Shown: positions 1,917-62,431 of the stretch, in pieces
How the letters are laid out: each line of letters opens with the position of its first letter
How positions within the stretch are numbered: position 1 is the first letter of the stretch
Origin: Cliona cf. orientalis
Lineage: Eukaryota > Porifera > Demospongiae > Clionaida > Clionaidae
Length of the DNA: 64,000 bases
Direction of reading: 5' to 3'
Assembly (NCBI GenBank): GCA_963930775.1
Contig: OZ005696.1
Coordinates: 7,812,001-7,876,000 of the forward strand
Program-made: the position numbers and the translations under genes
The notes under the pieces: generated by a model
The model's input: the letters and a program-made list of their open reading frames with translations, nothing else
The model's database searches: none
What the model was told of the DNA's origin: nothing

Positions 1917-2438
1917 ATGATCTACCAATCGATTCATATGACCACTGTGCTGCTGGGCACAGTGCTATGTGCCCTGATGATCACAGCCAAGGCCTGTCCA
2001 CTAGCCCCTAACTGCACACGAGATGAAGAATGCGAGGCCTACAATGACGCTAAAGCTGCAACCAGACCAGTGTACCTCAACGTCAATGGTACACTAAGCG
2101 ACTTCACCAACACACCGGACGAATTCAATCAAAAACTTGGTACAGACTATGAACTCGACGGCATGCCAAATATAACAGGGCAAGCTTGCTACAAAGAATC
2201 CAACCAAGAAGTAGGCTGTAAAGAGCTTATGGAAGTTGAAGGAGCAGCTTGCTCCTGGACATACCAGTGCAACTACGATCAGAACAGGCTCCCCCTATAC
2301 ATGTGGAGAGCATCTTGCAGCAATGAATCACAGACCATCTACTACCCTGTCCCAGTGCTGAAGCACAGAGATGCCTGCAACCCACAGCAAACATGGCAGC
2401 TAGTCATGGAGAAGGTTCCTGTGGGATGCAAATGCTAG
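1917..2438 (+). CDS. IL-17-like secreted cytokine, gene 1 (class A)
   Basis: Predicted 173-aa secreted protein. I chose the ATG at 1917 because it follows the TATA box and starts a normal signal peptide (MIYQSIHMTTVLLGTVLCAL, then MITAKA), with cleavage probably before CPLAPNC. The mature part has the family N-terminal module (NCTRDEECEAYNDAKAA, then VYLNVNGTLSDFTNTPDEF) and the IL-17-type C-terminal module: CSWTYQCNYDQNRLP, RASC, YYPVPVLKHRDAC and VPVGCKC. Established knowledge: IL-17 cytokines are secreted cystine-knot dimers that act on IL-17 receptors. That this protein is such a ligand is inferred from the motif order. N-glycosylation sequons are visible (NCT, NGT, NIT, NES). It is single-exon. 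It differs from its neighbours in the ELMEVEGAACSWTY stretch, which gene 4 (7252) partly shares. Confidence 0.8.
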   Translation: MIYQSIHMTTVLLGTVLCALMITAKACPLAPNCTRDEECEAYNDAKAATRPVYLNVNGTLSDFTNTPDEFNQKLGTDYELDGMPNITGQACYKESNQEVGCKELMEVEGAACSWTYQCNYDQNRLPLYMWRASCSNESQTIYYPVPVLKHRDACNPQQTWQLVMEKVPVGCKC

Positions 2439-3384
2439 GAATAAACTTACACTTCTGGCACATAAGCTTCCATCCCATTCTGAGAAACATTGTGTTAAAT
2501 ATATTATTTTTATATTAGTGCTTGCAATTAATACAGCTACAAAATTTCACAGACAAGCAACACTTACAGTGTATGTGTATATGCATACATCACTCTGAAA
2601 AAGCAGCAGCATAAACTCCAAAAATTATTATAGCTGAAAAAAAATTGGCAGGGAATTAAAATTTGTCAGTTTGGCCGTCTTAACTCTGACAACGCCCGGG
2701 AAGCCATACGCTTGCAGTGTTTTATGCGCATGCACTACGTGATAAACGTGGAATACCTGACATGCACGCACACATATTACACTGATGACCTTAACCCGAT
2801 TTGATCAAAATTGGAGTACGTATATACAGGCTATGGCTCTACTATCCATCCAGCTCAACTATGTGGAGGTTTCTGGAATTTTTTCTTTTTTCTGCTTCCT
2901 TGAAAAGAAAAAAAAAGCAAAAGTGGGAATTCTGTATCCCAGTATACCTAAACAATGGATACAGGAGAAATACTAAAAATCCCTGGGGATCCAGCCCTGA
3001 GAGCATTGGTTGAAAACATGCCAGGTCTGCAAATGAGGTGGAAGAGAGTTCTGAGAAACAGGTGGAGTAGGGAACTGAAAGTGGTTACTACCAGTTACTA
3101 GCTCAGCTATTTATTCCTGGAACAGGGATGATAATGTAATTAATTATATATAATATAGCAGAAGGGGGGGGGGGGATACCCTGTCCATTTCAGTTGCTCA
3201 GTAGATGGAGGCCACAGATTACTACAAAAAGATCTGCTTGAACAACCTGCATGCATTCCATTCCATTGACCACACCAAAGGAAATGAACAGGAGTAGAGT
3301 GGTGCAGCTGCTGTAAACCCCTACATGCATCAGTCAGTGATCTTTGAGAAGACCTCCAGGGAGATCCACCATGCACCCACGCGG
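2439..3384. other. IL-17 gene 3' flank and start of class B repeat unit
   Basis: Positions 2465-2570 match the 3' flanks of the class A genes at 30430-30550 and 33820-33930, and a relic at 63190-63290. From about 3075 a class B unit starts (AAGTGGTTACTACCAGTTACTAGC, then a poly-G tract at 3166-3176). The same start occurs at about 4431 and 60763. No other gene is seen. Confidence 0.55.
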
Positions 3385-3519
3385 CCACAAGAGTGGAAGA
3401 GGATATAAAAGCAGAGTTGAAGGCTGTAACTGAGTACATCAAAACAACTCGAGAGGACAAGGAAGTACATAATACCATCACTATTCAAAATCTTCGAAGT
3501 AAAAACACGGCTACAAAAA
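3385..3519 (+). promoter_or_regulatory. Class B promoter of IL-17-like gene 2
   Basis: TATAAAA at 3404-3410 sits in a conserved block (GAGTGGAAGAGGATATAAAA, then GCAGAGTTGAAGGCTGTAAC) about 110 bp before the ATG. The block recurs at 4745, 61806 and, with a damaged TATA, at 7136. It is unrelated to the class A promoter upstream of the TATA box. Confidence 0.6.
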
Positions 3520-4110
3520 ATGATGGCTACACGAATCATCACCACTCTAGCTCTGCTGCTGGTCACAACTAAACTTGCGGCCAATGCTGCGTGCATTCCA
3601 TTTTCAAGTAACTGCATACGAAATCAAGAATGCCAAGCCTACAATGACGCTAAAGCTGCAACCAGCCCAGTATACCTCAACGTCAATGCAATACTGAGCG
3701 ACTTCACAAACACTCCTGATGAATTGAACCAAAAACTTGGTACAGATTATGAAACTGACGGCATTCCAGATGAAGAAGGATTTATAGGAAGACAAGCTTG
3801 CTACAAAATCTTCAACCAAGAAGAAGTAGGCTGCAGAGAGAAAATTGAAGTTGACAGAGCTTGCTCCTGGGACTACCAGTGCGACTACGATCAGAACAGG
3901 CTCCCCCTATACATATGGAGAGCATCTTGCAGCAGTGAATCACAGACCATCTACTACCCTGTCCCAGTGCTGAAGCGCAGAGATGCCTGCAACCCACAAC
4001 CAACATGGCAGCTAGTCATGGAGAAGATACCCGTGGGGTGCAAATGCCAAGGAGAAACTTCCACTTCTATCCAAAAGATAAGAAAAAAAAATTTGGCTCT
4101 TGAGGCATAA
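3520..4110 (+). CDS. IL-17-like secreted cytokine, gene 2 (class B)
   Basis: 196-aa intronless protein of the same family. The class B signal peptide (MMATRIITTLALLLVTTKLA, then ANA) is cleaved probably before ACIPFSSNC. The mature part contains QECQAYNDAKAATSPVYLNV, a variable loop (DGIPDEEGFIGRQACYK), then CSWDYQCDYDQNRLP, RASC, VLKRRDAC and IPVGCKC. At the usual stop position the codon reads GGAGAA rather than GGATAA, so the frame runs on for about 20 more residues, ending KIRKKNLALEA. This tail is basic and absent from the paralogues. It may be a harmless read-through extension or a sign of relaxed constraint. The gene sits in a 1.35-kb unit repeated directly at gene 3. Confidence 0.8.
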   Translation: MMATRIITTLALLLVTTKLAANAACIPFSSNCIRNQECQAYNDAKAATSPVYLNVNAILSDFTNTPDELNQKLGTDYETDGIPDEEGFIGRQACYKIFNQEEVGCREKIEVDRACSWDYQCDYDQNRLPLYIWRASCSSESQTIYYPVPVLKRRDACNPQPTWQLVMEKIPVGCKCQGETSTSIQKIRKKNLALEA

Positions 4111-4754
4111 CTAACATTAGACCTATAGCAAAAAACATGAGAGTGTTCTACGTAACAGCTGCAAAATTTACCATTGATACTTCCACTGTTGTGAATATCA
4201 TGCTGTTATAATTTGCATATTATTATACCAAAATTTGATCTACAATAATTACCGTACTAAATCTAATACTACGCATGGAAAAAAATAATTTCAATTTTGA
4301 AAAACGCACGTTTTTCTGGTAAAGGTCGTCAATCGCTCCAGTTATGAGAACTCATAAAATCCTAATTTCTTACGTTAAATTGGATCATGCGTTGTATTCG
4401 ATTAACTATGGCAATCACTTCCCACTGGCTGAAAGTGGTTACTACCAGTTTCTAGCTCAGCTATTTATTCCTGGAACAGGGATGATAAGGTAATTAATTG
4501 CAATATAGCAGAAGGGGGGGGGGGGGGACAAATACCCTGTCCATTTCAGTTGCTCAGAAGATGGAGGCCACAGATTACTACAAAAAGATCTGCTTGAACA
4601 ACCTGCATGCATTCCATTGACCACACCAAAGGAAATGCACAGGAGTAGAGTGGTGCAGCTGCTGTAAACTCCTGCATGCATCAGTCAGTAATCTTTGAGA
4701 AGACCTCCAGGGAGATCCATCATGCACCCACGCAGCCACAAGAGTGGAAGAGGA

Positions 4755-4879
4755 TATAAAAGCAGAGTTGAAGGCTGTAACTGAGTACATTAAAACAACT
4801 TGAGAGGACAAGGAAGGACATAATACCATCACTATTTGGATCAAGTTGAAATCTTTGAAGTAAAAACACGGCTACAAAA
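4755..4879 (+). promoter_or_regulatory. Class B promoter of IL-17-like gene 3
   Basis: TATAAAA at 4755-4761 lies inside the same GAGTGGAAGAGGATATAAAA block as at gene 2, and the leader (TTTGAAGTAAAAACACGGCT, then ACAAAA) is also nearly identical. This marks gene 3 as a recent tandem copy. Confidence 0.6.
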
Positions 4880-5404
4880 ATGATGGCTACACAAATCATC
4901 ACCACTCTAGCTCTGCTGCTGGTCACAATTAAACTTGCGGCCAATGCTGCGTGCATTCCATTTTCAAGTAACTGCATACGAAATCAAGAATGCCAAGCCT
5001 ACAATAATGCCAAAGCTGCCACCAGCCCAGTGTACCTCAACGTCAATGCAATACTGAGCGACTTCACAAACACTCCTGATGAATTTAACCAAAAACTTGG
5101 TACAGATTATGAAACTGACGGCACTCCAGATAAAGTAGGAAGACAAGCTTGCTACAAAAACTTCAACCAAGAAGTAGGCTGCAGAGAGAAAATTGAAGTT
5201 GACAGAGCTTGCTCCTGGGACTACCAGTGCGACTACGATCAGAATAGGCTCCCACTATACATATGGAGAGCATCTTGCAGCAGTGAATCACAGACCATGT
5301 ACTACCCTGTCCCAGTGCTGAAGCGCAGAGATGCCTGCAACCCACAACCAACATGGCAGCTAGTCATGGAGAAGGTCCCTGTGGGATGTAAATGCAAGGA
5401 GTAA
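4880..5404 (+). CDS. IL-17-like secreted cytokine, gene 3 (class B)
   Basis: 174-aa intronless protein, the close tandem duplicate of the gene at 3520. It has the same signal peptide except IKLA for TKLA. The variable loop is shorter (DGTPDKVGRQACYK, lacking the EEGFI insert). The C-terminal knot segment is intact (CSWDYQCDYDQNRLP, RASCSSESQTMYYPVPVLKR, RDAC, VPVGCKCKE) and ends at the normal family position. Role inferred as a secreted IL-17-type ligand. Its 3' flank to about 6080 is repeated after gene 10. Confidence 0.8.
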   Translation: MMATQIITTLALLLVTIKLAANAACIPFSSNCIRNQECQAYNNAKAATSPVYLNVNAILSDFTNTPDEFNQKLGTDYETDGTPDKVGRQACYKNFNQEVGCREKIEVDRACSWDYQCDYDQNRLPLYIWRASCSSESQTMYYPVPVLKRRDACNPQPTWQLVMEKVPVGCKCKE

Positions 5405-5743
5405 ACTTACATTTCTAACCAGAAGATTGAAACATTTTGGCTCTTGAGGCGTAACTAACATTAGAACCAGAGTAAGAACATTAAGTCCACGTAATAGCTG
5501 CATAATTTACCATTGATACTTCCACTGTTGTGAATATCATGCTGTTTTAATTTGCATATTATATGGGGCGAGCCTGAGCGAGCCCCGAATACACGAGAGA
5601 CAGGAAGCGGTTTTCTATGTATATATATATTCTTGTATGTTTGTGGGGTGATCATTTCAGTGAGGAAAGAGTTAAATTTTGAACGCGTTAGGTTATCTAC
5701 AGGATTTTTTGTTAGGGGGGGGGGGAAACTATGTGTCGGTACC

Positions 5744-5778
<35 letters not shown>

Positions 5779-5970
5779 AAAGTAAGTTTTTGAATTGCAT
5801 CTTAGGCCTATTTTGATCAAAAATTAGTGCTGACAGATTGTGGTTGACAAAATTACATATCAACTAAGTAAGTGTGAAATTAGTACATAATTATAGATTA
5901 ACTTTCCCAAATAGTGCACAGACTCAATATTAGACATTTTCAAACAGTCAAACCGACGAATCACTCTTTA
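5405..5970. repeat. 3' flank duplicated at 62432-63000, with 31-nt poly-C tract
   Basis: The sequence from the gene 3 stop to about 6060 is repeated after gene 10. Shared landmarks are GAATACACGAGAGACAGGAA, TATATATATTCTTGTATG and GAGTTAAATTTTGAACGCG. Here it carries an uninterrupted run of 31 C at 5745-5775, against only short C runs in the other copy. No gene is seen. Confidence 0.65.
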
Positions 5971-5973
5971 TTG

Positions 5974-6400
5974 GCTTTTAGCATAATAGTACTATAATAA
6001 TAGCACCTTGCTATTATCATATGTTTCTATAGTAATTCTATGCTATTAGCACAGCTGTGCTATTTATGCTAATACACACCACCTTTTGCTATTTTTGCTA
6101 CTAATTTTGTAGTTAGTCTAAGGAGGCGAGCTATTTGCTATTTTGTAGTTATGGACTTAGAAGTCATTCGATTTTGCTATTAATGCTATTTTGCTATTTT
6201 GTAGTTAGTGTTAGGTGGTGTGCTAGTTTGCTATTAATGCTATTTTGCTACCTTTAAGTTAGTTAATCTAAGGAGGCGAGCTATTTTGCTATTTATGCTA
6301 TTATGCTATTTTAGTTAGTCTTAGAAGCCGTGCTATTTTGTTATTTATACATTTTGCTACTTTCAATAGCAAAATAGCAATAATAGCAAAATAGCACCAA
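5974..6400. repeat. GCTATTTTGCTATT-rich dispersed repeat
   Basis: A degenerate repeat of TGCTATTTTGCTATT words, with a turnover to the inverse AATAGCAAAATAGCA at its right end (6364-6397). It starts with TTGGCTTTTAGCATAATAGT. Related copies are at 23379-24382 and, truncated, at 63001-63085. It behaves like a nonautonomous inverted-repeat element family rather than a plain microsatellite. Confidence 0.6.
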
Positions 6401-7251: not shown

Positions 7252-7728
7252 ATGGCTACACAAATCATCACCACTCTGGCTCTGCTGCTTCCACTTCCAA
7301 ACTGCACACGAGATGAAGTGTGCCAAGCCTACAATGACGCTAAAGCTGCACCCAGCCCAGTGTACCTCACAGTCAATGCAACACTGAGCGACTTCACAAA
7401 CACACCTGACGAATTCAACCAAAAACTTGGTACAGACTATGAACTCGATGGCCTACCAAATATACATGGAGGGCAAGCTTGCTACAAATTGAGCAACCAC
7501 GAAGTAGGCTGTACAGAGCTTATGGAAGTCGACAGAGCTTGCTCCTGGGACTACCAGTGCGACTACGATCAGAACAGGCTCCCCCTATACATATGGAGAG
7601 CATCTTGCAGCAGTGAATCACAGACCATCTACTACCCTGTCCCAGTGCTGAAGCGCAGAGATGCCTGCAACCTACAACCAACATGGCAGCTAATAATGGA
7701 GAAGGTTCCCGTGGGATGCAAATGCTAA
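7252..7728 (+). CDS. IL-17-like gene 4, signal peptide shortened
   Basis: 158-aa family member starting at MATQIITTLALLL. The ATG at 7252 aligns with the second Met of genes 2 and 3. An in-frame ATG at 7198 lies in what is leader sequence elsewhere. About 18 residues that end the signal peptide and start the mature chain are missing, so TLALLL runs straight into PLPNCTRDEVC. The usual hydrophobic core and cleavage site are therefore cut short. The rest is intact: VYLTVNATLSDFTNTPDEF, the loop GLPNIHGGQACYK, CTELMEVDRACSWDYQC, RASC, VLKRRDAC and VPVGCKC. With its damaged TATA box it may be a decaying copy. It lies 211 bp from the vigilin KH5 exon, tail to tail with it. Confidence 0.65.
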   Translation: MATQIITTLALLLPLPNCTRDEVCQAYNDAKAAPSPVYLTVNATLSDFTNTPDEFNQKLGTDYELDGLPNIHGGQACYKLSNHEVGCTELMEVDRACSWDYQCDYDQNRLPLYIWRASCSSESQTIYYPVPVLKRRDACNLQPTWQLIMEKVPVGCKC

Positions 7729-8018: not shown

Positions 8019-8094
8019 CTACACAGATGAAAACACAGAAAAATGTATAGCATGATGAAATAACTATTTGCATACATGCACATAATAAATATAT

Positions 8095-9258: not shown

Positions 9259-9298
9259 CTAGGAGAAGGATTTCGTGGAAGTTTCAGGATTAAGGATA

Positions 9299-9508: not shown

Positions 9509-9799
9509 TCACTTATCAAACAATTATCGCTACTAAGCAAGCCTTACTTTTATATAAGGCATATTAATTTTACACTACAAGTAACAACTAGCGTTACCTC
9601 TGGTGGTAAAGCTAAACAAGAACAATTAAACAATTAAAGGAGTGAGGAAAAGAGGAAGTTTATCTTTAATGATACTCTACATTGAACGAGCGGTGGGGGG
9701 GGGGGGGGATGCACGTTTGCAGGGGAGGAAGGAAGCACGAAAGGGGGGGGGGGGGGTTGTAACAAGGGAGAAAGAGGGGAGGGAGAAGGAGAGACTTAC

Positions 9800-9994
9800 C
9801 ACAGTGAGTGCCTGCCCGAGCTTCTCCTGGGGCCCCCTGAGAGTGATGGTGTTGACGTCCGAGTCGGAGGGCGGTACCTCGACCCACACCCCAGTGGTCT
9901 GGAGCACCTCCTGGAGACCTTGGCCACGTGGACCCACAATGTACTTATGCTGGGTCTTCTTCACCTCAACAGACACAGTTCCATACGTACGACA
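9800..9994 (-). CDS. HDLBP-like: Vigilin copy 1, exon 5 (KH3)
   Basis: 65 codons, phase 0, acceptor CTGCAG and donor GTAAGT. It encodes CRTYGTVSVEVKKTQHKYIV, then GPRGQGLQEVLQTTGVWVEV, PPSDSDVNTITLRGPQEKLG and QALTV. The GPRG loop is intact. It aligns closely with human vigilin VEVKKSQHKYVIGPKGNSLQ. Poly-G tracts in the downstream intron (9694-9757) are assembly hazards. Confidence 0.92.
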
Positions 9995-10237
9995 CTGCAG
10001 GTACATAACAATACATGCGAGATGGGAAGGAGATGTCATAATAGTTATAACTCATGTAAATTTAGGCAGTGTCTATCTACTTGCAAAAGTATACTCCTCA
10101 AATCTTGGGTGGAGAATCTAAGTTAGCACTCTGGGGTGCTAGTAATTTGTATCTTTAAAAGCTTTCGTAGATAATTCTATTTGCAGAAACTGAGGCAATG
10201 CAGTGGGAAAGCTCTAGATCTTGCAGGAAATTCTCAC

Positions 10238-10693: not shown

Positions 10694-10965
10694 GGGAGGA
10701 GGGAGAGAGAGAAATATGCTTTTTACAGTTTATCAACAAAAGGTGCTAATTTAAAAGTTGAAGCCTTCACCTAAGTGTTAAACAATTAGTCAATCAAAAT
10801 CAAATTATCAACATTTGACAGTCTAATGCCAATTATCACCAGGCAATTCACCACAGGCGAAAATTTAATAAAAGCCAAGTTGGTCAAATCACCACAGGTA
10901 GCAGGGTGTGGTACACACATGCAAAACACACACACACTCACTCTCTCTCTCTCACACATACATAC

Positions 10966-11172
10966 CTGTTCATCGGATATCATCTGTATCTGGTGCTGAG
11001 CCTTGTCAATTCCCTCTTTGGTGCCGACTATCTTGATGATGTCTGAGGGATCGTCGTGACGAGGAATGGAGATCTTGGTAGCCGTGGACAGCTCGATGTT
11101 CTTGAGCTTTTGTCCTTCTTTGCCAATCACAAACCTGTGGTGCTCCTTGGGAATCTTCAAGTCAACATGGGC
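10966..11172 (-). CDS. HDLBP-like: Vigilin copy 1, exon 3 (KH1)
   Basis: 69 codons, phase 0, acceptor AATAG and donor GTATGT. It encodes AHVDLKIPKEHHRFVIGKEG, then QKLKNIELSTATKISIPRHD and onward to QIQMISDEQ. The GKEG loop is intact. It aligns with human vigilin AIPKEHHRFVIGKNGEKLQD. The equivalent exon in copy 2 has GKES, a broken loop. Confidence 0.92.
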
Positions 11173-13502: not shown

Positions 13503-16436
13503 TCAATTTTGACACTTTGTACAAACAAATTCTTCCGGAGCTACACTGCCAAAAATGTTCTGACACTGCCAATGATACCATTTTTCACATATCTCACACT
13601 GAATCCAATCCTCTACTTCTTCTGTTTCCTCCTGCCAATCTTTACTACACACTCCACATTTAATAGAGTTCTCACAGTCACCTTGGCTTTTCTGCTGCTT
13701 CTTTCTTGCTCTGGTTTCAGCAGCCTTTCTTGCTCCTTTCTTTCTGTTCTCCTGAACAGTCTCAAGATGCTCGATGTACCAGCGCACCTCCTCTGTAGGT
13801 AATAAGACCTTTCTTGCCAATTCTTTCATCTGATCATCTGGCATGGTACCTCTGCAGCTTTTGAGTGTAGCAGCAATGACTGTGGAGGGGGTTGACGAGA
13901 CTGCACAGCTCACTGATGATTGCAAGTTGACCAAGTTACTCTCAGGTTTCAGATAGTGACCGCTGCAGGTGCCCTTACACGTACTGCAGTTGTCGTCACC
14001 CCAGGGACGTGCAGGATCAGATACTGGCAAAGGGAGAAATGACAGCAATGGCCCTCCTGAATACCAGTGAATAACATTGTGGGAACCCCTCTTGCATATA
14101 GGGTGAATACAGTCTTCTCTAAAACAACATTTGAGAAAGAAAATATACTGCTGGGGTAGATTTGGTACCATATGTAAAGTTTTCACGGTCCAGACATCGT
14201 TGAAGTGAGAAAACAATTGGGGATCTTCTTTCTGGAGCCTTTCTCTCTCTTTTTTTGGCCCTTTCAGAAAAATTCTTAACTTCTCCCTCTCCTGCTGATC
14301 AGAGGAGGTACCCTTAAACAAGTGAATTTGAGTTCTACCACACGAACATCCATCACAACGGTCTATGTATATATCAATAGCTGTGTCCAAGTTTCTGCGA
14401 AGAATTTCCTCATCAACTTTGCCTGACTCAGCGATACAAGATCCATGAATGGTGGAGGGAATGAAGAGGGAACTATGAGCTCTAGTTAAACACCCATTCT
14501 GCAACTCTACACGATTCATGTAGGAGGAGCCACTGCTTCTTGTGGTCACGAGTGTGACCAACTTCTCCTGTTCCAAATGCCAGCGAGTCCAGTAATACTG
14601 GACTTCTTCGTGACCAGGACCTTCGTCCCCAGCACCGTCAACACGGATACAGTCTATCAACTTTGGCTTGCCTGTCTCAGTGTTGTAGAATGCATTTCTA
14701 AGTACCTCCTGTTTTGATAGCATGTTGATGTCACTAAAGTGTTGAGCAGCATTTTTAGAATGCATTGGCTGGGCTTTGGTTACTCCAGCACAGAGTTCAG
14801 TTGTTGTGGAACTTCCAGTAAAATTGTAGCTAGTTGTTTGTAAAACAGAAGGGTATCGATTCACGTAGTCGGTGTGAGTAGATAAGATATCCTTGCCACG
14901 GACTGTTGGAGTGCTATATTGATGATGGGTGCTTAGCGTATCCAATCGGAAGCCAGCTTGGTCATCTCTGTTCATGGTAAGGATATCTGTAGCATCTGTG
15001 TACTGCAGTACATTAAGATTGCGGTAAAGGGCAGCACTCCAATGAGTGTCAGGATTAAGTTTTAGTTGAAACCCTTTCCTGGCTCTTCTACTTGTGACTT
15101 GAGCTAGACCCTTGTAGCGTTTAGCCGACAACCGACGCCTATTTCTGGCGACACATAATTGTACAACAGTACCATATGAGAAGTGGTGATTGTACACCTC
15201 TTCCAAGTGTTGCTGGATTCTCTTGTACGTACATTTCTTCCCTACTTTCTTGTTTCCGTCAAACGTTCTCACTCCCGTGCGTCTCCAGGCATCGGCCCCA
15301 ACGCAGCAGCTTTCTACATATCGCTCAATTTCTTGCCCAATGTTGGGAAACTTGGAAGCAATGGTGTTTAAATGTTCAGATTTTTTCCTTCTCAGAAAAT
15401 GTTGTTCAGAAATGTATTTGGCTCGCTTTCGACGAACTTGTCTTTTGATAGCAGCAACCTTCTTAGCTATTAGTTTCTCATCATGTACCGACTTCAAGTA
15501 TGCACTTGCATCATCTGATTCAGAATCTGTTACTATTTCACCACTCATCTCTAGGGCAGCCCTCTCACGTGCATCACCATTCAAGTGGTCATCAGCCAAA
15601 TGTGCTTCATAAGATGACTTTATCTGCTTCAATTCCTCTTCTGAGAAGCCTCCTAGGTGATGGGTATAGAACTGTTCTGCCGCCTGTTGGTTATCATCAT
15701 CAATCTGTTCCATAAATTCAAACCAATTAAAATCACACCGTCTCATAATATTACCGAGGTTTGTAATTTCATTTTCAGTAAGGGAGTCGGCACCCTCAGA
15801 TGAAGTATGTGTGTCCATATCCGAATCTAGTTCTCCTCCTGAACAGGAATCGCTATCATACATGTTCTTAGTCAACTTGATTCTGGTGGAAATAATCTGG
15901 TCAAATTCTTCATGGATCCTCATACACTGTTCAATACATTCTTCGATTTTCTCCTTTTTTGAATTCATATTCTCAGGTAGGCCTAGCTCTCTACGAGCAG
16001 CAGTTGGAGTAAGGCCACTTGCCTTATACAAAGCATATCGAATGGTATCTCGCTCTCTATCACTCTGAGCAAATTTCAGTAATTGTGCAACTTCTGGTTT
16101 GCTAATTGCAATATTCTGTCTAGAATTTGTTAGCCAAGCTTCCTCGAGTATTCCCTGTAGACTTTGGTAGTTAACTTGACCAAATTTTTCCATCACAACT
16201 GTTTTTGAATTTCCTGTAGATGGTTGACCCAGTCTCAGTGTAACTAATGGCATCTGTAAAAGTTTGCGCTTTGCATGTTCGGCTGTGTAAGTAACTCCCG
16301 GAAAAGAAGATTTGAAAAGGTCAGAAAGACTACAGATGTGGTCTTGTAGTATCAGTCTAGCAGCATACAGTAAAGGTGGGCAATCAGGGCAAGGTTGAGA
16401 ATGTTCTTGTTCACATATATACATTTTGATATCCAC
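13503..16436 (-). CDS. Transposase-like protein with C-terminal PHD finger
   Basis: 977-aa single-exon protein inside the transposon. The N-terminus has paired cysteines (CEQEHSQPCPDC). Residues around 130-150 (SDRERDTIRYALYKASGLTP, then TAARRELG) look like a helix-turn-helix DNA-binding segment. The middle contains acidic motifs suited to an RNase-H-like DDE core (VLQYTDATDILTMNRDDQAG and IRVDGAGDEGPGHEEVQYYW, then TRWHLE), followed by SGSSYMNRVELQNGCLTRAH. A Cys-rich patch (CDGCSCGRTQ) follows. The last 60 residues form a C4HC3 PHD finger (CGVCSKDW, WIQCEICEKWYHWQC, CTKCQN). PHD fingers read histone tails, so this one may guide target choice. The transposase role is inferred from the TIRs and acidic motifs. 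I cannot fix the catalytic triad by eye. Confidence 0.75.
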   Translation of the reverse strand: MDIKMYICEQEHSQPCPDCPPLLYAARLILQDHICSLSDLFKSSFPGVTYTAEHAKRKLLQMPLVTLRLGQPSTGNSKTVVMEKFGQVNYQSLQGILEEAWLTNSRQNIAISKPEVAQLLKFAQSDRERDTIRYALYKASGLTPTAARRELGLPENMNSKKEKIEECIEQCMRIHEEFDQIISTRIKLTKNMYDSDSCSGGELDSDMDTHTSSEGADSLTENEITNLGNIMRRCDFNWFEFMEQIDDDNQQAAEQFYTHHLGGFSEEELKQIKSSYEAHLADDHLNGDARERAALEMSGEIVTDSESDDASAYLKSVHDEKLIAKKVAAIKRQVRRKRAKYISEQHFLRRKKSEHLNTIASKFPNIGQEIERYVESCCVGADAWRRTGVRTFDGNKKVGKKCTYKRIQQHLEEVYNHHFSYGTVVQLCVARNRRRLSAKRYKGLAQVTSRRARKGFQLKLNPDTHWSAALYRNLNVLQYTDATDILTMNRDDQAGFRLDTLSTHHQYSTPTVRGKDILSTHTDYVNRYPSVLQTTSYNFTGSSTTTELCAGVTKAQPMHSKNAAQHFSDINMLSKQEVLRNAFYNTETGKPKLIDCIRVDGAGDEGPGHEEVQYYWTRWHLEQEKLVTLVTTRSSGSSYMNRVELQNGCLTRAHSSLFIPSTIHGSCIAESGKVDEEILRRNLDTAIDIYIDRCDGCSCGRTQIHLFKGTSSDQQEREKLRIFLKGPKKERERLQKEDPQLFSHFNDVWTVKTLHMVPNLPQQYIFFLKCCFREDCIHPICKRGSHNVIHWYSGGPLLSFLPLPVSDPARPWGDDNCSTCKGTCSGHYLKPESNLVNLQSSVSCAVSSTPSTVIAATLKSCRGTMPDDQMKELARKVLLPTEEVRWYIEHLETVQENRKKGARKAAETRARKKQQKSQGDCENSIKCGVCSKDWQEETEEVEDWIQCEICEKWYHWQCQNIFGSVAPEEFVCTKCQN

Positions 16437-29708: not shown

Positions 29709-30239
29709 ATGTCGATCTGTACCATTACTGTGCTGCTGGCAACAGTGCTGTGCACTGTGCTAACAACAGCCAAGGCCTGTCCACTACCCTCTAACTGCAC
29801 ACGAGATCAAGAATGTCAAGCCTACAATGACGCTAAAGCTGCCACCAGCCCAGTCTACCTCAACGTCAATGCAACACTGAGCGACTTCACAAACACTCCT
29901 GACCAATTCAACCAAAAACTTGGTACACGTTATGATGCTGACAGCATTCCAGATGAAGAAGGATTTATAGGAAGACAAGCTTGCTACAAATTGAGCAACC
30001 AAGAAGTAGGCTGCAGAGAGAAAATTGAAGTTGACAGAGCTTGCTCCTGGGACTACCAGTGCGACTACGATCAGAATAGGCTCCCCCTATACATGTGGAG
30101 AGCATCTTGCAGCCGCAATGAATCACAGACCATCTACTACCCTGTCCCAGTGCTGAAGCGCAGAGATGCCTGCAACCCACAACCAACATGGCAGCTAGTC
30201 ATGGAGAAGGTTCCTGTGGGATGCAAATGCCAAGGATAA
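29709..30239 (+). CDS. IL-17-like secreted cytokine, gene 5 (class A)
   Basis: 176-aa intronless protein, a good reference for the family. Signal peptide residues 1-23 (MSICTITVLLATVLCTVLTT, then AKA). The mature chain has 11 cysteines, at 24, 30, 36, 92, 102, 112, 118, 134, 155, 172 and 174. Residues 112-125 (CSWDYQCDYDQNRL) correspond to the W..Y..D.NR.P segment of IL-17s. RASC (Cys134), VLKRRDAC (Cys155) and VGCKC (Cys172 and 174) supply knot positions. The second Cys that follows AKC within 5 residues in vertebrate IL-17 is absent. N-glycosylation sequons: Asn29, Asn54, Asn137. The loop at 76-92 (DADSIPDEEGFIGRQAC) varies among paralogues. It acts presumably outside the cell as a dimeric ligand; no receptor gene is in the window. 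Confidence 0.82.
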   Translation: MSICTITVLLATVLCTVLTTAKACPLPSNCTRDQECQAYNDAKAATSPVYLNVNATLSDFTNTPDQFNQKLGTRYDADSIPDEEGFIGRQACYKLSNQEVGCREKIEVDRACSWDYQCDYDQNRLPLYMWRASCSRNESQTIYYPVPVLKRRDACNPQPTWQLVMEKVPVGCKCQG

Positions 30240-33108: not shown

Positions 33109-33633
33109 ATGTCGATCTGTACCATTACTGTGCTGCTGGCAACAGTGCTGTGCACTGTGCTAACAACAGCCAAGGCCTGTCCACTAGCCCCTAACTGCAC
33201 ACGAGATCAAGAATGCCAAGCCTACAATGACGCTAAAGCTGCCACCAGCCCAGTATACCTCAACGTCAATGCAACACTGAGCGACTTCACAAACACTCCT
33301 GACCAATTCAACCAAAAACTTGGTACAGATTATGAAACTGACGGCACTCCAGATGAAGGATTCATAGGAAGACAAGCTTGCTACAAAAACTCCAACCAAA
33401 AAGTAGGCTGCAGAGAGAAAATTGAAGTTGAAGGAGCTTGCTCCTGGGACTACCAGTGCGACTACGATCAGAACAGGCTCCCCCTATACATGTGGAAAGC
33501 ATCTTGCAGCAATGAATCACAGACGTCGACCATCTACTACCCTGTCCCAGTGCTGAAGCGCAGAGATGCCTGCAACCCACAACCAACATGGCAGCTAGTC
33601 ATGGAGAAGGTTCCTGTGGGATGCAAATGCTAA
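33109..33633 (+). CDS. IL-17-like secreted cytokine, gene 6 (class A)
   Basis: 174-aa intronless protein with a signal peptide identical to gene 5. Differences cluster in the middle: TDYETDGTPDEGFIGRQACY, KNSNQKVGC and EVEGACSWDYQC. An extra ST before IYYPVPVLKRRDAC (ESQTSTIYY) comes from a 6-nt insertion in the loop after RASC. The knot residues are intact and the protein ends VPVGCKC. The flanks are near-identical to gene 5, so the duplication is recent and the mid-protein changes stand out. Confidence 0.82.
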   Translation: MSICTITVLLATVLCTVLTTAKACPLAPNCTRDQECQAYNDAKAATSPVYLNVNATLSDFTNTPDQFNQKLGTDYETDGTPDEGFIGRQACYKNSNQKVGCREKIEVEGACSWDYQCDYDQNRLPLYMWKASCSNESQTSTIYYPVPVLKRRDACNPQPTWQLVMEKVPVGCKC

Positions 33634-36075: not shown

Positions 36076-36378
36076 ATTGCACAATGCAGCTTACGAGATC
36101 TACTTACCAAATACACAACTAGCGCTGAAGGCTATAAAAAGCAGAGTAAATAAGTTAAGCAGATCATAAACTGTCCGGTGAAAACTCCAGTCAAAGAAAT
36201 AAAATCTTTCTTCAAGTAACTCTAAAATTGAGAAAAAATGTCGATCTGTACCATTACTGTGCTGCTGGCAACAGTGCTGTGCGCCGTGCTAACGATAGCC
36301 AAAGCCTGTCCTCTAGCCCCTAACTGCACACGAGATCAAGAATGCACAGCCTACAATGACGCTAAAGCTGCAACTTTT
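34067..36378. repeat. IL-17 array unit 3, truncated
   Basis: It repeats unit 2 from the vigilin-intron homologue to the class A promoter, then breaks off inside the IL-17 coding sequence at 36375-36378, where vigilin intron 1-like sequence begins. Confidence 0.75.
36076..36140 (+). promoter_or_regulatory. Class A promoter of truncated IL-17-like gene 7
   Basis: ATTGCACAAT at 36076-36085 and TATAAAAA at 36133-36140. The promoter is intact although the gene is broken. Confidence 0.6.
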
Positions 36379-43710: not shown

Positions 43711-44276
43711 ATGATCAATCAATCGACTCATATCACCACTGTACTGCTGGCCATAGCGCTGTGTGCTATGCTAATGACAGCCAAGGCCTGTCCACTAGCA
43801 TTAAACTGCACACGAGATCAAGAATGCCAAGCCTATAATGACGCTAAAGCTGCAACCAACCCAGTGTACCTCAATGTCAATGCAACACTGAGCAATTTCA
43901 TCAACACACCTGACGAATTCAACCAAAAACTTGTACAGATTATGACTCTGACAGCATTCCAGATGAAGAAAAAAGACAAGCTTGCTACAAAAACACTGAC
44001 CAAGAAATAGGCTGCAGAGAGAAACTTGAAGTTGTAACAGGAAATTGCTCCTGGATATACCAGTGCGACTACGATCAGAATAGGCTCCCCCTATACATAT
44101 GGAGAGCATCTTGCAGCAGTGAATCACAGACCATCTACTACCCTGTCCCAGTGCTGAAGCGCAGAGATGCCTGCAACCCACAACCAACATGGCAGCTAGT
44201 CATGGAGAAGGTCCCTGTGGGATGCAAATGTAACTTGCACTTCTATCCAGAAGATAAAAAAAATTTTGGCTCTTGA
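43711..44276 (+). pseudogene. IL-17-like gene 8, one frameshift
   Basis: It starts MINQSTHITTVLLAIALCAM, then LMTAKACPLALNCTRDQECQ, and is normal to DEFNQKL. There CTTGGTACAG has become CTTGTACAG (near 43934), a 1-nt deletion that derails the frame. The remaining sequence in the next frame is intact: DYDSDSIPDEEKRQACYKNT, CSWIYQCDYDQNRLP, RASC, VLKRRDAC, VPVGCKC, then NLHFYPEDKKNFGS and a stop. The single defect suggests a very recent loss, an allele, or a sequencing error. It lies 162 bp from the KH5 exon of vigilin copy 2, tail to tail, just as gene 4 does in copy 1. Confidence 0.8.
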
Positions 44277-45154: not shown

Positions 45155-45375
45155 CTAGAAGGAGGAGTTTGTGGAAGTTTCAGGATTGAGGATACCACTG
45201 ATGATATAACTTACCAAATAATTGCTACTAAGACGGTAATATAATTTTGCACTACTTAACTCTGGGGGCAAAGCTAAAAGTTAAACAATTGAAGGAGTGA
45301 GGAAAAGAGGAAGTTTGCATCGTACCATTCATGATAATACTCTACATCGAAACGGGGAGGGGGGAGGGAACTTAC

Positions 45376-45570
45376 CACAGTGAGCGCCTGCCCGAGCTTC
45401 TCCTTGGGTCCCCTGAGAGTGATGGTGTTGACGTCCGAGTCGGAGGGCGGTACCTCCACCCACACCCCAGTGGTCTGGAGCACCTCCTGGAGACCTTGGC
45501 CACGTGGACCTACAATGTACTTGTGCTGGGTCTTCTTCACCTCAACAGACATAGTTCCATATGTACGACA
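45376..45570 (-). pseudogene. Vigilin copy 2, KH3 exon (intact frame)
   Basis: 65 codons, with V to M (GTMSVEVKK) and Q to K (RGPKEKL) changes from copy 1, and acceptor CTGCAG and donor GTAAGT kept. The GPRG loop is intact. Confidence 0.8.
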
Positions 45571-45808
45571 CTGCAGGTACATAACAATACATGCGAGAAG
45601 GTGCACGTGAGAGGATGCCATAATAATTATTTAGGCAGTGTCTGTGGCTGGTTATCCACGTGCAAAAGTATACTCCTCAAATTTTGGGTAAGTTAGCACT
45701 CTACGGTGCTAGTAACTTATATCTTCGTAAGCTTTCCTAGATATTTCTATTTGCAGAAACTGAGGCAATGTAGCTCTATATCTTGTGGAAAATTTATGAA
45801 AAACTCAC

Positions 45809-56342: not shown

Positions 56343-58027
56343 AGCCACGCCCACTTTTAATCACCTATGCCTGCTCAATCTCGCCCCAAGGAGTGACTGT
56401 GACCCACTAGCACAGAGTTACTACAATAATTATTGTAGGTATAGAGCTTTACCACACACCACAGCTGACTCTTGTAGTTTACAGTAGATTATTCATAGCT
56501 GAAGCCATGTTCAGGATGTACCATGAACCACCTGTTGGTATTATCAGTAGCATAGGAAGATGATTTGATTAAAGGGTGCTCTGGTGTCTAATTTATAATT
56601 AGCCTATTAAGTAACACACTACTTTGAGATGTGTAAAGTATACAGAGATTTACAGGTAGGTTGAGGGACTGAAGCAGAGTTGAAAGTTACTCATGTATAC
56701 ATTATTGACCACAAACACCATACAGCACTGTAGTCTAGAAATTCAATTACGTCCAGCTCAGAAATTTCATGGGTGCACCCGCACCTGGTGCACCCATGCT
56801 TCCTATACCACTGATTATGTACTACACAGCTTGTCTGCTGCTAACCATACAGTGGCAGCTACTATGCCAAGCTATAGTAGGCCTTGTATACAAGTGGGAG
56901 GGGCTGCTCAAAATCGTTTGGGGGGGGGGGTTGCAACCCCCTGAACCCCCCCCCCCCCCAGATCCGCCCCTGCAACGCCATGAGTAGTTATAAGTCCTTG
57001 CCTTGTCGTTCGATGGCGTTCTGGCGCCCACGAGGAGCATGCGACAATATGACATTGTGCGCAATTTTTTGACAACGCGAGTCTGTATACTCTATGGTTC
57101 CCCAGACGGTCGCCAAAATCGCCATTTGCGATTGTCTAGTGGCTTCTGGCGATTGTCTAGTCGCGCTGATCGCCAAATTGGCGAAAGTGGGAGGAGTGTA
57201 GCTAGTAGGTAATGGTCGCTTGGTGAAAGGAATGCTGTTGGTTAAACTGTACTATACAGGCACTAGACCAACCCACAACGTTTACTTAACACCCACTACA
57301 GTAGTGCTGCAAACATAACCACTTGTCTGTACAGCTGCCTGCACTCCTAGTGTGTCTCTCCCATTCAACTTTGTGCAACATATACATACAGTGGCTATTG
57401 AATATGAAATTTGGCTATAAAAGAAATGATGTAGTAGCCAATTTGGCTACGATATTTTCATAGCTTCGGGAACCCCTGATACTAGATCTAAATTTAGTAA
57501 CAATCATCGCTTATATCGTGACACAATGCCTTTAATGTGATATGGACTATAGGAACCCATCCTTTAACTATAACTTATCTTCCCTGGTAACTATTTATAG
57601 TGCATCGTGTAACTCTCCCAGCTGTTTAATACTGTACACAAAAAGTAGCTAGGTGGTATGCAATATTAAAAAGCTGGCAATTGGCTTTAAGATCCTGCTA
57701 GCCAACCCTAGTAGTGGTGTCCTTAGCTTGTCATCCTTCTACTTCACAGATCCAATGTTAGGAGCTACAGCAAGCCTCCTGTCCCGAGCAGTGAGCCACC
57801 AAAGTGAGGCATAAAACGGTGATTTTCAAATGTGATTGCTCGCCCCGCCCACACCGGATGTGGGCGGGGCTAGCAACTCGTAGCGAGTGTAGTAGGATGA
57901 TGGAAGAATATTCATGCCAAGTTTGAAGTACATAGCTGCTGGTCCCTTTTCTCATATCCTGTCACATGTGCTTATATGTGTGTGTATACAGGGATAAGCA
58001 ACTTTGGAAAGCAATTTTTAATCCTTA
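56343..58027. other. Repeat-rich, no gene seen
   Basis: Positions 56918-56975 carry poly-G then poly-C tracts ending CCAGATCCGCCCCTG, the end type of hAT-like MITEs (CAGGGGCGGATCTGG on the other strand). A small inverted repeat, CATGGGTGCACC / GGTGCACCCATG, lies at 56768-56800. ORFs here are tract-driven and not supported. Confidence 0.5.
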
Positions 58028-58629
58028 ATTGTTATCCTGCGCGCATGCACAAGGGGTAATCGGTCGTGTCGTCGTTAGCACAAAAATCGCCATATCTCGA
58101 GATATAGGCGTCTAAGCGACTTGTAAACACAACGAATCTATCGAATTCGGCGAAAAACTGGCTTCAGTGTGCGTCAAATCGAGGGATACGGTCCACAAGC
58201 GTCACAAATAGTGCCTTTTTGTTGGCCACCGTAGCCACGCCTATCGGCAGTGCCCATCAATGCATGATGCATGCCCATTGTGCTTTCTGCTCATGTGCAC
58301 AACTAACAAGCGTATGACTGGTAAAGATCGTCGATGTTCTAAATAATGCTCATGACGTCTACAGTGACTGAAATCTGAAGCCTCATGGAACCAATCACTA
58401 TGTAAGATAGCTATACTATTATCACAACAAAATTTAGGTACAAGTTCATGTCTTCCTAGTCTGGGGTAGGTCTGGGTGCAGAGAGCGCTGTTTCAAGTGT
58501 CACTGGGACAACTAAGCAGCATAATTTTCCATTATTTTCTCAAGTTCACAACAGTATAGCCATGCACCGAAAGTAAATCTATAGATTGCGCAATGTGCGC
58601 TCGGGGTATGTGCTCTACAGAGCTCTAGT
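58028..58629. mobile_element. Helitron-like element, second copy
   Basis: It starts TTATCCTGCGCGCATGCACA after AATTG and ends GGGGTATGTGCTCTACAGAG, then CTCTAGT, the same end as at 47220. The interior shares TCTAAGCGACTTGTAAACAC-like blocks with 61010-61100. No ORF. Confidence 0.5.
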
Positions 58630-58847
58630 TTTATGCATGTTACATGCATATCATGTAACATGCATGGAAACTGTCACGCACGTTACATGAAACATACGTG
58701 CTACATGCATGTAGATACAAATGGAACCTGCATATGACATGCTTGTACATGCACAAGAGACTCCTCATAAGTAGCCAGCAGATGCAATTAATTTTGTTTT
58801 GTGTATTTTTACTAACACAGGAAAGCCCCAAATAGGTGCAATGCTTA

Positions 58848-59460
58848 TCCCACTTGTACCACTTTCATGTCACACTGTAAACTTCAGATAATTAAGAGAA
58901 GAGGTCATAGGGGCTAGCTCATGCTTGCATATTTAACCCTACAAAAACTCAGCAAGGGTTCAGTGTGCTTAGTAATTGTGCATAGTAGCTGTGTCCAGTT
59001 CTACCAGTCTTAGTGCAGATGAAGATGAAGCTATTTACTTCTCTAGCTTATTCTGTGGTGACATGGAGCCGGCTGGTTTAAAAATGACGATGGCTGGTCA
59101 TTAAAAAAATTAGAACCGAGTGTGCAGAGAAATTGCTTTCACTGATGCTATGGGCTCTTGATCTGCAGCTATGATCCGGATTGCTAGTTGGCTCATCTAC
59201 TAGGATCCTCTACAGATGGTCACACTAGTCTTGAGGCCAACATGCAGGTTTGCAGACTAGCCTGGGTCCCTACCATGCACACAGTGCCTATGCTAACAGT
59301 CTGGTATACTAAAAATTGTCATAGTAACTATTTTGCTTATTCTGTAGCCTTCTCTGACCTCTCTACAACCATGATACTAAAACATAAAACCTGGCCTATG
59401 CTTTCTATTCTAGTCTGTGGCTGTAATCATTACTACTTCAATGTAAAAACTCAGTAACTA
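58848..59460. repeat. Segmental duplicate of 49840-50460
   Basis: See the partner copy. This copy also has TCAAGTGTCACTGGGACAAC (59461), which occurs again at 58493, so the region has been copied more than once. Confidence 0.7.
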
Positions 59461-59765
59461 TCAAGTGTCACTGGGACAACTAAGCAGCATAATTTATTAC
59501 ACTGGTAGTGCCTTTGATATCTAAGGCTTCCTAACACACTCTTGGTAGTATATATATATATACATACATATCCAAATTCAATAATTTTGTACCTGCCAGT
59601 AATCAAAATTCCATGTACAATAGACAAATTCACTCCAATACAAAGATTATGTAGTAAATTCAACTCGGATATGAGCTGGTAATTTTTTTACATTTTAATC
59701 ATTATTCTGTAACATACAATTGCATGCGAGAGCCACTTACCAAATACACAGCTAGTGCTGAAGCC

Positions 59766-59773
59766 TATAAAAG
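59766..59773 (+). promoter_or_regulatory. TATA box of IL-17-like gene 9
   Basis: TATAAAAG in the class A context (GTGCTGAAGCCTATAAAAGC), 91 bp before the ATG. The upstream class A blocks at 59610-59720 are recognisable, but the ATTGCACAAT site has decayed to AATTGCATGC. Confidence 0.55.
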
Positions 59774-59856
59774 CAGCAAATCAGTCTAGATCACAAATTA
59801 TCCGGTGAAAATTACAGTCAAAAGGAAGAAAATTTTCTTCAAGCAACTATCGAGAA

Positions 59857-60378
59857 ATGGTCAATCGATCGACCTGTACCATTACTGTGCTGCTGGCAAC
59901 AGTGCTGTGTGCACTGCTGATCACAGCCAAGGCCTGTCCACTAGCCTCAAACTGCACACAGGAATGTCATGCCTATATTGACGCTAAAGCTGCCACCAGC
60001 CCAGTGTACCTCAACGTCAATGCAACACTGAGCGACTTCACAAACACTCCTGACCAATTCAACCAAAAACTTGGTACAGATTATGGCTCAGACAGCATAC
60101 CAGATGAAGAAAAAAGACAAGCTTGCTACAAAAACTCCGACCAAGAAATAGGCTGCAGAGAGATTATTGAAGTTGAAGGAGCTTGCTCCTGGACATACCA
60201 GTGCAACTACGATCAGAACAGGCTCCCCCTATACATATGGAGAGCATCTTGCAGCAGTGAATCACAGACCATCTACTACCCTGTCCCAGTGCTGAAGCGC
60301 AGAGATGCCTGCAGCCTGCAACCAACATGGCAGCTAGTCATGGAGAAGGTACCCGTGGGGTGCAAATGCCAAGGATAA
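59857..60378 (+). CDS. IL-17-like secreted cytokine, gene 9 (class A)
   Basis: 173-aa intronless protein. Signal peptide MVNRSTCTITVLLATVLCAL, then LITAKA. The N-terminal module lacks two residues (NCTQECHAYIDAKAA, without RD). The loop is the short EEKRQACYKNSDQEIGC type, also in gene 8. The knot segment starts EVEGACSWTYQCNYDQNRLP as in gene 1, followed by RASC, VLKRRDACSLQPTW and VPVGCKCQG. Its 5' half is class A, but its 3' flank (60380-60780) matches the class B unit after gene 2 (4040-4440). So it looks like a recombinant between the two classes. Confidence 0.82.
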   Translation: MVNRSTCTITVLLATVLCALLITAKACPLASNCTQECHAYIDAKAATSPVYLNVNATLSDFTNTPDQFNQKLGTDYGSDSIPDEEKRQACYKNSDQEIGCREIIEVEGACSWTYQCNYDQNRLPLYIWRASCSSESQTIYYPVPVLKRRDACSLQPTWQLVMEKVPVGCKCQG

Positions 60379-60950
60379 ACTTCCACTTCTATCCAGAAGA
60401 TAAGAAAAAAAAATTTGGCTCTTGAGGCATAACTAACATTAGACCTATAGCAAAAAACATGAGAGTGTTCTACGTAACAGCTGCAAAATTTACCATTGAT
60501 ACTTCCACTGTTGTGAATATCATGCTGTTATAATTTGCATATTATTATACCAAAATTTGATCTACAATAATTACCGTACTAAATCTAATACTGCGCATGG
60601 AAAAACATAATTTTAATTTTGAAAAACGCGCGTTTTTCTGGTAAAGGTCGTCAATCGCTCCATATATAAATGTTGCGAGAACTCAAAAAATCCTAATTTC
60701 TTACGTTAAATTGGATCATGCATTGTATTCGATTAACTACGGTAATCACTTACCACTGGCTGAAAGTGGTTACTACCTGTTACTAGCTCAGCTATTTATT
60801 CCTGGAACGGGGATGATAATGTAATTAATTATATATAATATAGCTGAAGGGGGGGGGGGAATACCCTGTCCATTCAGTTGCTCAGTAGATGGAGGCCACA
60901 GATTACTACAAAAAGATCTGCTTGAACAACCTGCATGCAATCTTGTTTGT
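60379..60950. repeat. Class B 3' flank and unit start
   Basis: Co-linear with 4050-4600: TTGGCTCTTGAGGCATAACT, AAAACGCGCGTTTTTCTGGT, GGTCGTCAATCGCTCCA, then GCTGAAAGTGGTTACTACC and the poly-G tract. It breaks at about 60935 into Helitron-like sequence. Confidence 0.7.
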
Positions 60951-61329
60951 GTACTTTTTAGCACTGTCATCCCTACTTCACCCTTCGATTTTAATTGTTT
61001 TTTATACAAGTTCTAGGCGTCTGTGCGTGCTATAAGCACAACCAATCGGTAGATATCGGTGAAAAAATGGTTTGTACGCACTTCGAATTTCTCAAAAAGG
61101 CTTACTAGTGCTACAAATCGTGCATTTTCTGTTCAGCATGCCTGTGGTTTATCGACCACACCCACTCTTTTAGCATAATAGTATGCGGATGCGACTGCGC
61201 ATGCTCAAGCACGGTGTTGGAAAGGGTCGTCACGTCATGAAACCGCTACATGTGTGCCTCATAGTGTTGCAATACTACGCTATAGTGGCTACAGGGCACG
61301 CGGGGTATGTGCTCTACAGAGCTCTAGTT
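60936..61329. mobile_element. Helitron-like element, 5'-truncated
   Basis: It ends GCGGGGTATGTGCTCTACAG, then AGCTCTAGT, like 58629, and shares interior blocks with it. The 5' end is not defined. It interrupts a class B IL-17 unit between CCTGCATGCA and the promoter. Confidence 0.45.
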
Positions 61330-61805
61330 TAATATTGCATACCACCCAGTTTCTGTGCGCAATATTAAACAGCCGAGAAAGAGGAGCAGCTGGGGAGTAG
61401 CTCAGTGAGTTACATAGAATAGTTACCAGGGAAGATAAGCTAGGTAGCATACATAGCAATATTGTCGACTGTATATTATAACGTTATACTCCTGCTATTC
61501 ATTTCCTTTGGTGTGGTCAATGGAATAAAGATATACGAGTGGAAGAACCTTCCAGTAGAATGACATCACAGACCCATAGAATAGTTTACACAAGTGACCA
61601 CTTTATCATGCCTAAATCATTAGTGAGGCCAATTAAGGGCTTATAGACCCCAAAGCCCTACAAGTCCTTGGTAGGTGGTGAGACTCGGTCATTGCGTGTG
61701 TAGACACTTCTATAGTAGTTCAATACCCTTATCCTGTATGCAGGAATGTTCAAGCATCTATGATCTTTGACCTGAAAACAACCTCCAGCACCATGCATCC
61801 ACAAG
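61330..61805. other. Intergenic, no gene seen
   Basis: Contains TAATATTGCATACCACCCAG (related, in inverse, to 47720-47750) and a resumed class B upstream region (CATTTCCTTTGGTGTGGTCA, 61500). No other gene. Confidence 0.45.
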
Positions 61806-61927
61806 AGTGGAAGAGGATATAAAAAGCCGAGTAGAAGGCCGTAACTAAACAACTCAAGAGGACAGACGTAATACTATCACTATTTGGATCAAGTCGAAAC
61901 CTTTAAAGTTAAAACACGGCTACAAAA
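61806..61927 (+). promoter_or_regulatory. Class B promoter of IL-17-like gene 10
   Basis: TATAAAAA at 61818-61825 in GAGTGGAAGAGGATATAAAA, with the class B leader (TTAAAACACGGCTACAAAA) up to the ATG. Confidence 0.6.
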
Positions 61928-62431
61928 ATGATGGCTACACGAATCATCATCACTCTGGCTCTGCTGCTGGTCACAACTAAACTTGCTGCGTGCATTCCAT
62001 TTCCAAGTAACCGCACACAAGAATGCCAAGCCTACAATGATGCCAAAGCTGCAACCAGCCCAGTCTACCTCAACGTCAATGCAACACTGAGCGACTTCAC
62101 AAACACTCCTGATGAATTCAACCAAAAACTTGGTACAGATTATGAACTCGAAGGCATTCCAGATAAACAAAAAAGACAAGCTTGCTACAAAACCTCCAAC
62201 CAGAAAGTAGGCTGCAGAGACAAAATTAAAGTTGAAGGAGCTTGCTCCTGGGACTACCAGTGCGACTACGATCAGAACAGGCTCCCCCTATACATGTGGA
62301 GAGCATCTTGCAGCAGTGAATCACAGACCATCTACTACCCTGTCCCAGTGCTGAAGCGCAGAGATGCCTGCAGCCTGCAACCAATATGGCAGCTAGTCAT
62401 GGAGAAGGTCCCTGTGGGATGCAAATGCTAG
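61928..62431 (+). CDS. IL-17-like secreted cytokine, gene 10 (class B)
   Basis: 167-aa intronless protein. The class B signal peptide is shortened by a few residues (MMATRIIITLALLLVTTKLA, then ACIPFPSNRTQEC), and the first NC Cys is replaced by Arg (SNRTQEC against SNCIRNQEC), so this chain lacks one N-terminal cysteine. The loop is DKQKRQACYKTSNQKVGC. The knot region is intact: VEGACSWDYQCDYDQNRLP, RASC, VLKRRDACSLQPIW, VPVGCKC. Its 3' flank to about 63080 duplicates the flank of gene 3. Confidence 0.8.
   Translation: MMATRIIITLALLLVTTKLAACIPFPSNRTQECQAYNDAKAATSPVYLNVNATLSDFTNTPDEFNQKLGTDYELEGIPDKQKRQACYKTSNQKVGCRDKIKVEGACSWDYQCDYDQNRLPLYMWRASCSSESQTIYYPVPVLKRRDACSLQPIWQLVMEKVPVGCKC

Follow-up and report, generated by a model that had tools for sequence, protein, structure and literature searches.

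Among the closest described systems is the IL-17 family of the sea urchin Strongylocentrotus purpuratus, which comprises 35 genes, all but five of them in tandem arrays, with one to three exons and some pseudogenes; its ten subfamilies, on nine scaffolds and with a mean identity of 33%, have eight conserved cysteines, are expressed in the gut epithelium after bacterial challenge, and are accompanied by two transmembrane SEFIR receptors (PMC5457136). Bivalve IL-17 expansions reach 33 members in Mytilus and 24 in Crassostrea (PMC8353272). Here, we analyze a 64,000-nucleotide stretch of the genome of Cliona cf. orientalis, hereafter the window, which holds ten IL-17-type genes or remnants. These copies likely belong to a large expansion, in this sponge, of secreted cytokines of the IL-17 family.

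Porifera have been reported to lack IL-17. Saco 2021 found none in Amphimedon and named Cnidaria the most ancient phylum with the family (PMC8353272), a June 2026 review states the absence from Porifera citing that work (PMC13337447), and Huang 2015 proposed an origin in nematodes (PMC4517768). An Amphimedon queenslandica entry with a Pfam IL17 domain, A0A1X7VXB1, was noted by Saco 2021, whose authors could not locate it in the genome. IL-17 appears as a KEGG pathway in three sponge papers, and a Dysidea genome paper reports one or two SEFIR genes. No description of an IL-17 array in any sponge was found in the open-access literature, covered by titles and the starts of abstracts with preprints outside this scope; the Ensembl annotation of the Cliona genome may already list IL-17 genes. 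The host is a demosponge (assembly odCliOrie1.1; PMC12639293), a point that the preliminary description of the window, made from its sequence alone, had left conditional. The window corresponds to positions 7812001-7876000 of chromosome contig C8 in an assembly copy of 216.8 Mb and 149 contigs, slightly smaller than the published total of 217.17 Mb in 307 scaffolds (PMC12639293).

A blastn search of the 64-kb window with the copy at 29709, which is the reference for residue numbering (29709-30239), returned ten places, all on the + strand, with eight uninterrupted frames and two remnants (Table 1), in agreement with the preliminary description, whose quoted motifs are also present in the window copies. 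Every intact copy consists of one uninterrupted frame, in which a hydrophobic N-terminus is followed by a conserved N-terminal region, a linker that varies, and the conserved core of IL-17. The term intronless, used earlier, stands at the level of such frames rather than of transcripts. The signal peptides described earlier are visible in the translations as N-terminal hydrophobic stretches, recognized by reading rather than with a signal-peptide predictor; in the copy at 7252-7728, the signal sequence is shortened. The same deletion is found in six other genes, together forming class C (7 of the 41 intact array-type genes), whose proteins may be poorly secreted or act inside the cell.

The array had been described as one of ten genes, which is true inside the window, but it extends beyond both window edges. 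The main array holds 50 copies over 227 kb (C8:7,789,007-8,016,332), all on the + strand, 36 of them intact by a rule of our own (a recognized start, a GCKC or GYKC end, and >97% of the match; one copy scored intact ends in GYKC) and 14 broken. Six further array-type copies, five of them intact, are dispersed (two on C8 and one each on C5, C13, C14, and C18). These counts are lower bounds, obtained by reducing 69 search rows to 56 array-type places; of the 13 rows dropped, nine were the second parts of split copies, two were C16 rows handled apart, and two were short fragments (C8:7908583; C8:7877814, - strand). The C16 rows are two diverged IL-17 genes lying side by side (identity to the reference copy, 36% and 26%; Pfam 8.3e-12 and 6.4e-10). 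An independent search of the genome with Pfam PF06083 gave 49 matches, all above the cut-off. The 36 intact array copies share 77-99% nucleotide identity (mean pairwise 86%) and encode 36 distinct proteins. This identity, together with flanking DNA that repeats with the genes, argues for duplication rather than chance, and the lineage-specific expansion proposed earlier is supported.

It is very unlikely that these genes come from another animal in the sponge or that their number reflects unmerged haplotypes. The specimen is highly heterozygous, with a k-mer completeness of 60.5% for the primary assembly (PMC12639293), and identity between some copies reaches 99%; however, the array lies inside a Hi-C chromosome with no N in the window, the mean pairwise identity of the intact array copies is 86% and all 36 of their proteins differ, and the dispersed copies on C5, C8, C13, C14, and C18 favor a host gene.

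Profile searches placed the proteins in a single family. Pfam IL17 (PF06083) was the only one found at E 0.001 in all 43 intact proteins, and the eight window proteins scored 39.4-46.9 bits against a cut-off of 24. A profile of the 43-member alignment matched 25 PDB sequences at E ≤10, all from the IL-17 family (3 IL-17F, 21 IL-17A, and 1 IL-25; best 1.6e-6). The model of the core (residues 85-176; predicted local distance difference test (pLDDT) 74.3) gave 255 Foldseek matches at E ≤10, of which the best 50 were all IL-17A, IL-17F, or IL-25 (best 1.8e-3), with template modeling scores of about 0.55-0.65 by query length for this predicted fold against the listed IL-17 entries. The full-length model, poor outside the core (mean pLDDT 54.9), yielded a list of the same kind; among its rows is an entry with an antibody title (5n7w), one chain of which the PDB profile search names as IL-17A. 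These are the profile and structure comparisons that the preliminary description had proposed, and they uphold its assignment of the Cys-rich domain. Folds of the knot type resemble one another, and a fowlpox NGF-like protein ranked 15 in a viral fold search (E 3.1), which could suggest a different cystine-knot family merely resembling IL-17. Such an origin has almost no probability, as no other cystine-knot family was found in Pfam or among the best 50 of the 255 PDB fold matches. We regard the IL-17 identity and the expansion as nearly certain.

Bacterial, archaeal, or viral relatives were considered and rejected: of the pattern matches, one in contigs of GTDB and 25 in IMG/VR, none was confirmed by tblastn, and the best match in the viral fold library had an E of 1.4. 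As GTDB and IMG/VR contain no animals by design, these searches say little about other animals.

The preliminary description had made its reading depend on SEFIR receptors in the host genome, and such loci are present. Among unspliced open frames, rather than gene models, eight matches to SEFIR (PF08357) exceeded the cut-off of 23 bits: four on C18, two on C15, and one each on C17 and C10. A single frame at C18:1133292-1134263 encodes a Ser/Thr-rich stalk, a membrane helix, and a SEFIR domain (25.3 bits), and C18:1139357-1140271 has a similar layout with a SEFIR match under the cut-off (20.9 bits). The C18 loci L032 and L033 have a strong helix in the preceding open frame and are putative membrane forms; no helix was found in the stretch examined at C18 locus L035. 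On C17, a Death domain (1.8e-12) lies in the next open frame after SEFIR, and on C15 (L037), SEFIR and Death occur in one frame (1e-5 and 3e-7). These forms resemble a placozoan SEFIR+Death protein that has itself been compared with CIKS adaptors (PMC6321704). A profile of six tails from C18 and C9 matched two SEFIR structures best in the PDB (5.6e-4 and 7.1e-4), followed by ribosomal S17 at ≥0.3. By analogy with IL-17 elsewhere, the array proteins probably act as cytokines through SEFIR receptors.

Two other loci deserve mention. The SEFIR frame at C10:6804520-6804927 (L036) follows what we read as a caspase-like frame and precedes a Death-like one, the scan itself having covered the SEFIR frame only. 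A 684-aa single-frame membrane protein at C9:4844666-4846717 (-) (L070, L075) has a SEFIR-like tail that shares 29% identity with a SEFIR frame on C18 (E 3.6e-10). It was rejected as a receptor: the protein has no Pfam match at E 10, its tail alone gives no SEFIR match at E 1 (the other five of the six tails do), and its five ectodomain relatives (C1:9493514, 9511258, and 9529607, 83-86%; C9:3105272 and 3114554, 55-59%, both with a sushi-like tail by eye) lack SEFIR within the sequence examined.

The 41 intact array-type genes fall into three 5'-end classes (A, 21; B, 13; C, 7), which are interleaved along the chromosome. On trees, the number of class changes rises from 3 for residues 24-72 to 9 for the linker and 12 for the core, where shuffles averaged 17.1 changes and went no lower than 12, 13, and 12, respectively. 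Synonymous distances between class A and classes B/C were 0.41 (residues 24-72), 0.25 (73-111), and 0.14 (112-174), and those within classes 0.24, 0.21, and 0.13. A small class signal persists in the core (ratio 1.11, reached by 2 of 300 shuffles), so homogenization is incomplete. The ratio of nonsynonymous to synonymous substitution rates (dN/dS; pooled Nei-Gojobori) came to 0.25 over residues 24-72 and 0.27 over the core, compared with 0.81 over the linker (73-111) and 0.85 over the signal region. Hence, the IL-17 core is nearly homogenized between the three 5' classes while the 39-residue linker varies almost freely, although a linker dN/dS of 0.81 does not demonstrate positive selection. 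The simplest reading is that gene conversion has acted on the 3' half without regard to class, which would keep the core alike between copies while the linker diverges; it draws on the distances and trees rather than on a formal conversion test. Within the window, flanking DNA recurs alongside the genes every 1.3 to 3.7 kb or so, and many copies have their nearest relative at a distance of 57-175 kb, suggesting that the array grew by both tandem and block duplication.

Upstream regions were scanned in the 34 of 41 intact genes with 400 bases upstream, using Markov resamples as shuffles. TATAWAW occurred in 32 of the 34 (shuffled mean 14.4, maximum 21), and the nearest same-strand TATA-like box starts 67 to 139 bases before the ATG (104 in the reference copy). 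Since the copies share the box by descent, this count is not independent evidence; the boxes would suit single-exon genes with their own promoters.

Of the 36 intact array copies, 35 or all 36 have a cysteine at each of positions 92, 102, 112, 118, 134, 155, 172, and 174. The sponge proteins align with human IL-17F, IL-17A, and IL-25 over the core strands, at the W-x-Y and D-x-N-R-x-P motifs, and at the C-terminal C-x-C. Unlike IL-17F, the sponge proteins lack the 14-residue loop carrying the second knot cysteine, and a cysteine, Cys112, replaces the serine of S-P-W. The disulfide pairing is therefore probably altered, and one might guess that Cys118 is the new partner. Two positions occupied by serine in chordates are reported to be cysteines in invertebrate IL-17s (PMC4517768), and sea urchin subfamilies 3 and 9 to lack the two C-terminal knot cysteines (PMC5457136). 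As three of the four canonical knot cysteines align and some accepted members also lose some, we consider the sponge proteins variant members of the family.

Several results weigh against a cytokine array. Besides the one missing knot cysteine, a single copy searched against the PDB matched only IL-17F, weakly (E 0.46), and neither the core nor the full-length model had a Foldseek match at E 0.001 (best 1.8e-3). The IL-17R FnIII ectodomain (PF16556) had no genome match at E 1, in a search that lacked a positive control since none of 14 controls matched either. Broken copies occupy 14 of the 50 array places. Finally, inducible sites are not enriched within the 400 bases upstream: strict kB was found in 1 of the 34 genes, loose kB in 4, AP-1 and GAS in none, and C/EBP in 19, none above the largest shuffle. 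This last result, as well as the many near-identical copies, the altered cysteine set, and the presence of single-copy IL-17 genes on C16, would also suit an abundant secreted effector (antimicrobial, adhesive, or structural) derived from an IL-17 ancestor, the true ligands being the two diverged C16 genes. Such a use of the IL-17 fold is unlikely: conservation is strongest in the core, which holds this fold (dN/dS 0.27), the genome has SEFIR receptors and adaptors, and the C16 gene at 5589-6188 of L044 shows the linker and core cysteine pattern of the array.

If the array consists of IL-17 cytokines, its products would, as IL-17 does elsewhere, be secreted, dimerize, bind membrane receptors with a cytoplasmic SEFIR domain such as those of the C18 cluster, and signal via the SEFIR+Death adaptors. 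They may serve in an epithelial response to microbes or symbionts, and the chances for and against an immune or symbiont use are even. A more speculative and rather improbable version is a recombining ligand-diversification locus, in which conversion would place class-specific 5' modules and fast linkers on a constant core, each sponge thereby having its own ligand set for the clustered membrane-bound SEFIR receptors, for symbiont management or the recognition of other individuals. If so, IL-17 signaling would predate the divergence between sponges and other animals.

A sponge chromosome with about 50 IL-17 copies, in a genome with SEFIR membrane proteins and adaptors, contrasts with the published absence of the family from Porifera; unless these genes were transferred, the family is no younger than the ancestor that sponges share with other animals. 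IL-17 signaling thereby becomes testable in an animal without gut or lymphoid tissue. A role in symbiosis is testable as well, because Cliona cf. orientalis houses dinoflagellate algae of the Symbiodiniaceae (PMC12639293) and the KEGG pathway "IL-17 signaling" showed enrichment in a freshwater sponge infected with algae (PMC7882143). The missing knot cysteine, the nearly homogenized core with its almost freely varying linker, and the TATA-like boxes are new with respect to the preliminary description.

Table 1 IL-17-type copies and other open frames in the window (window positions).
Feature	Class	Position	Strand	Evidence	Remarks
IL-17-type gene, open frame	A	1917..2438	+	Pfam IL17 7.7e-11	
IL-17-type gene, open frame	B	3520..4110	+	Pfam IL17 3.7e-12	20-residue C-terminal extension
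IL-17-type gene, open frame	B	4880..5404	+	Pfam IL17 2.4e-11	
IL-17-type gene, open frame	C	7252..7728	+	Pfam IL17 3.8e-10	Shortened signal sequence
IL-17-type gene, open frame	A	29709..30239	+	Pfam IL17 4.5e-11	Reference copy; fold models made
IL-17-type gene, open frame	A	33109..33633	+	Pfam IL17 1.8e-10	
IL-17-type remnant		36238..36374	+	blastn 91% over 137 bases	5' piece only
IL-17-type remnant		43738..44231	+	blastn 87.5%; two tblastn pieces in different frames	Frameshift and stop
IL-17-type gene, open frame	A	59857..60378	+	Pfam IL17 6.7e-11	
IL-17-type gene, open frame	B	61928..62431	+	Pfam IL17 8.1e-10	
Fic/DOC domain frame, 385 aa		25171..26328	+	Pfam 1.8e-17	Within the IL-17 array
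977-aa frame		13503..16436	-	PHD finger 3e-5	PHD finger at end; no further Pfam match
KH-domain open frame		10786..11160	-	Pfam 5e-16	
Open frame		9677..10039	-		Partly near-identical to 45274..45621
Open frame		45274..45621	-		Partly near-identical to 9677..10039

Among the other frames of the window, the 977-aa frame with a PHD finger is possibly a mobile-element gene. The frames at 9677 and 45274 look to us like repeated pieces of a vigilin-like gene.

The mitochondrial contig of the assembly (C149, 19,633 bases) uses genetic code 4 and has its rRNAs, tRNAs, and recognized protein genes all on one strand. It appears to carry atp9, which is typical of sponge mitochondria; apart from cox1, the mitochondrial protein genes were named from our reading of the translations. 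A second cox1 match, with a score equal to that of the mitochondrial contig, lies at C111:18100-19440 (-) on a 44-kb contig, which is either a longer mitochondrial assembly or a further copy.

Compared with the known systems, the Cliona array shares with A0A1X7VXB1 of Amphimedon the Pfam IL17 domain in a sponge protein; that protein is a single entry for which no array has been reported. With S. purpuratus, it shares tandem IL-17 arrays, genes of apparently few exons, pseudogenes, eight conserved cysteines, and transmembrane SEFIR receptors. However, the sponge has 50 copies of one kind in one array, at 77-99% nucleotide identity and with one knot cysteine missing. Bivalves, also marine filter feeders, have likewise undergone a lineage-specific expansion of IL-17, but while theirs is described as consisting of many divergent isoforms (PMC8353272), that of the sponge is a recent, homogenized array in another phylum.

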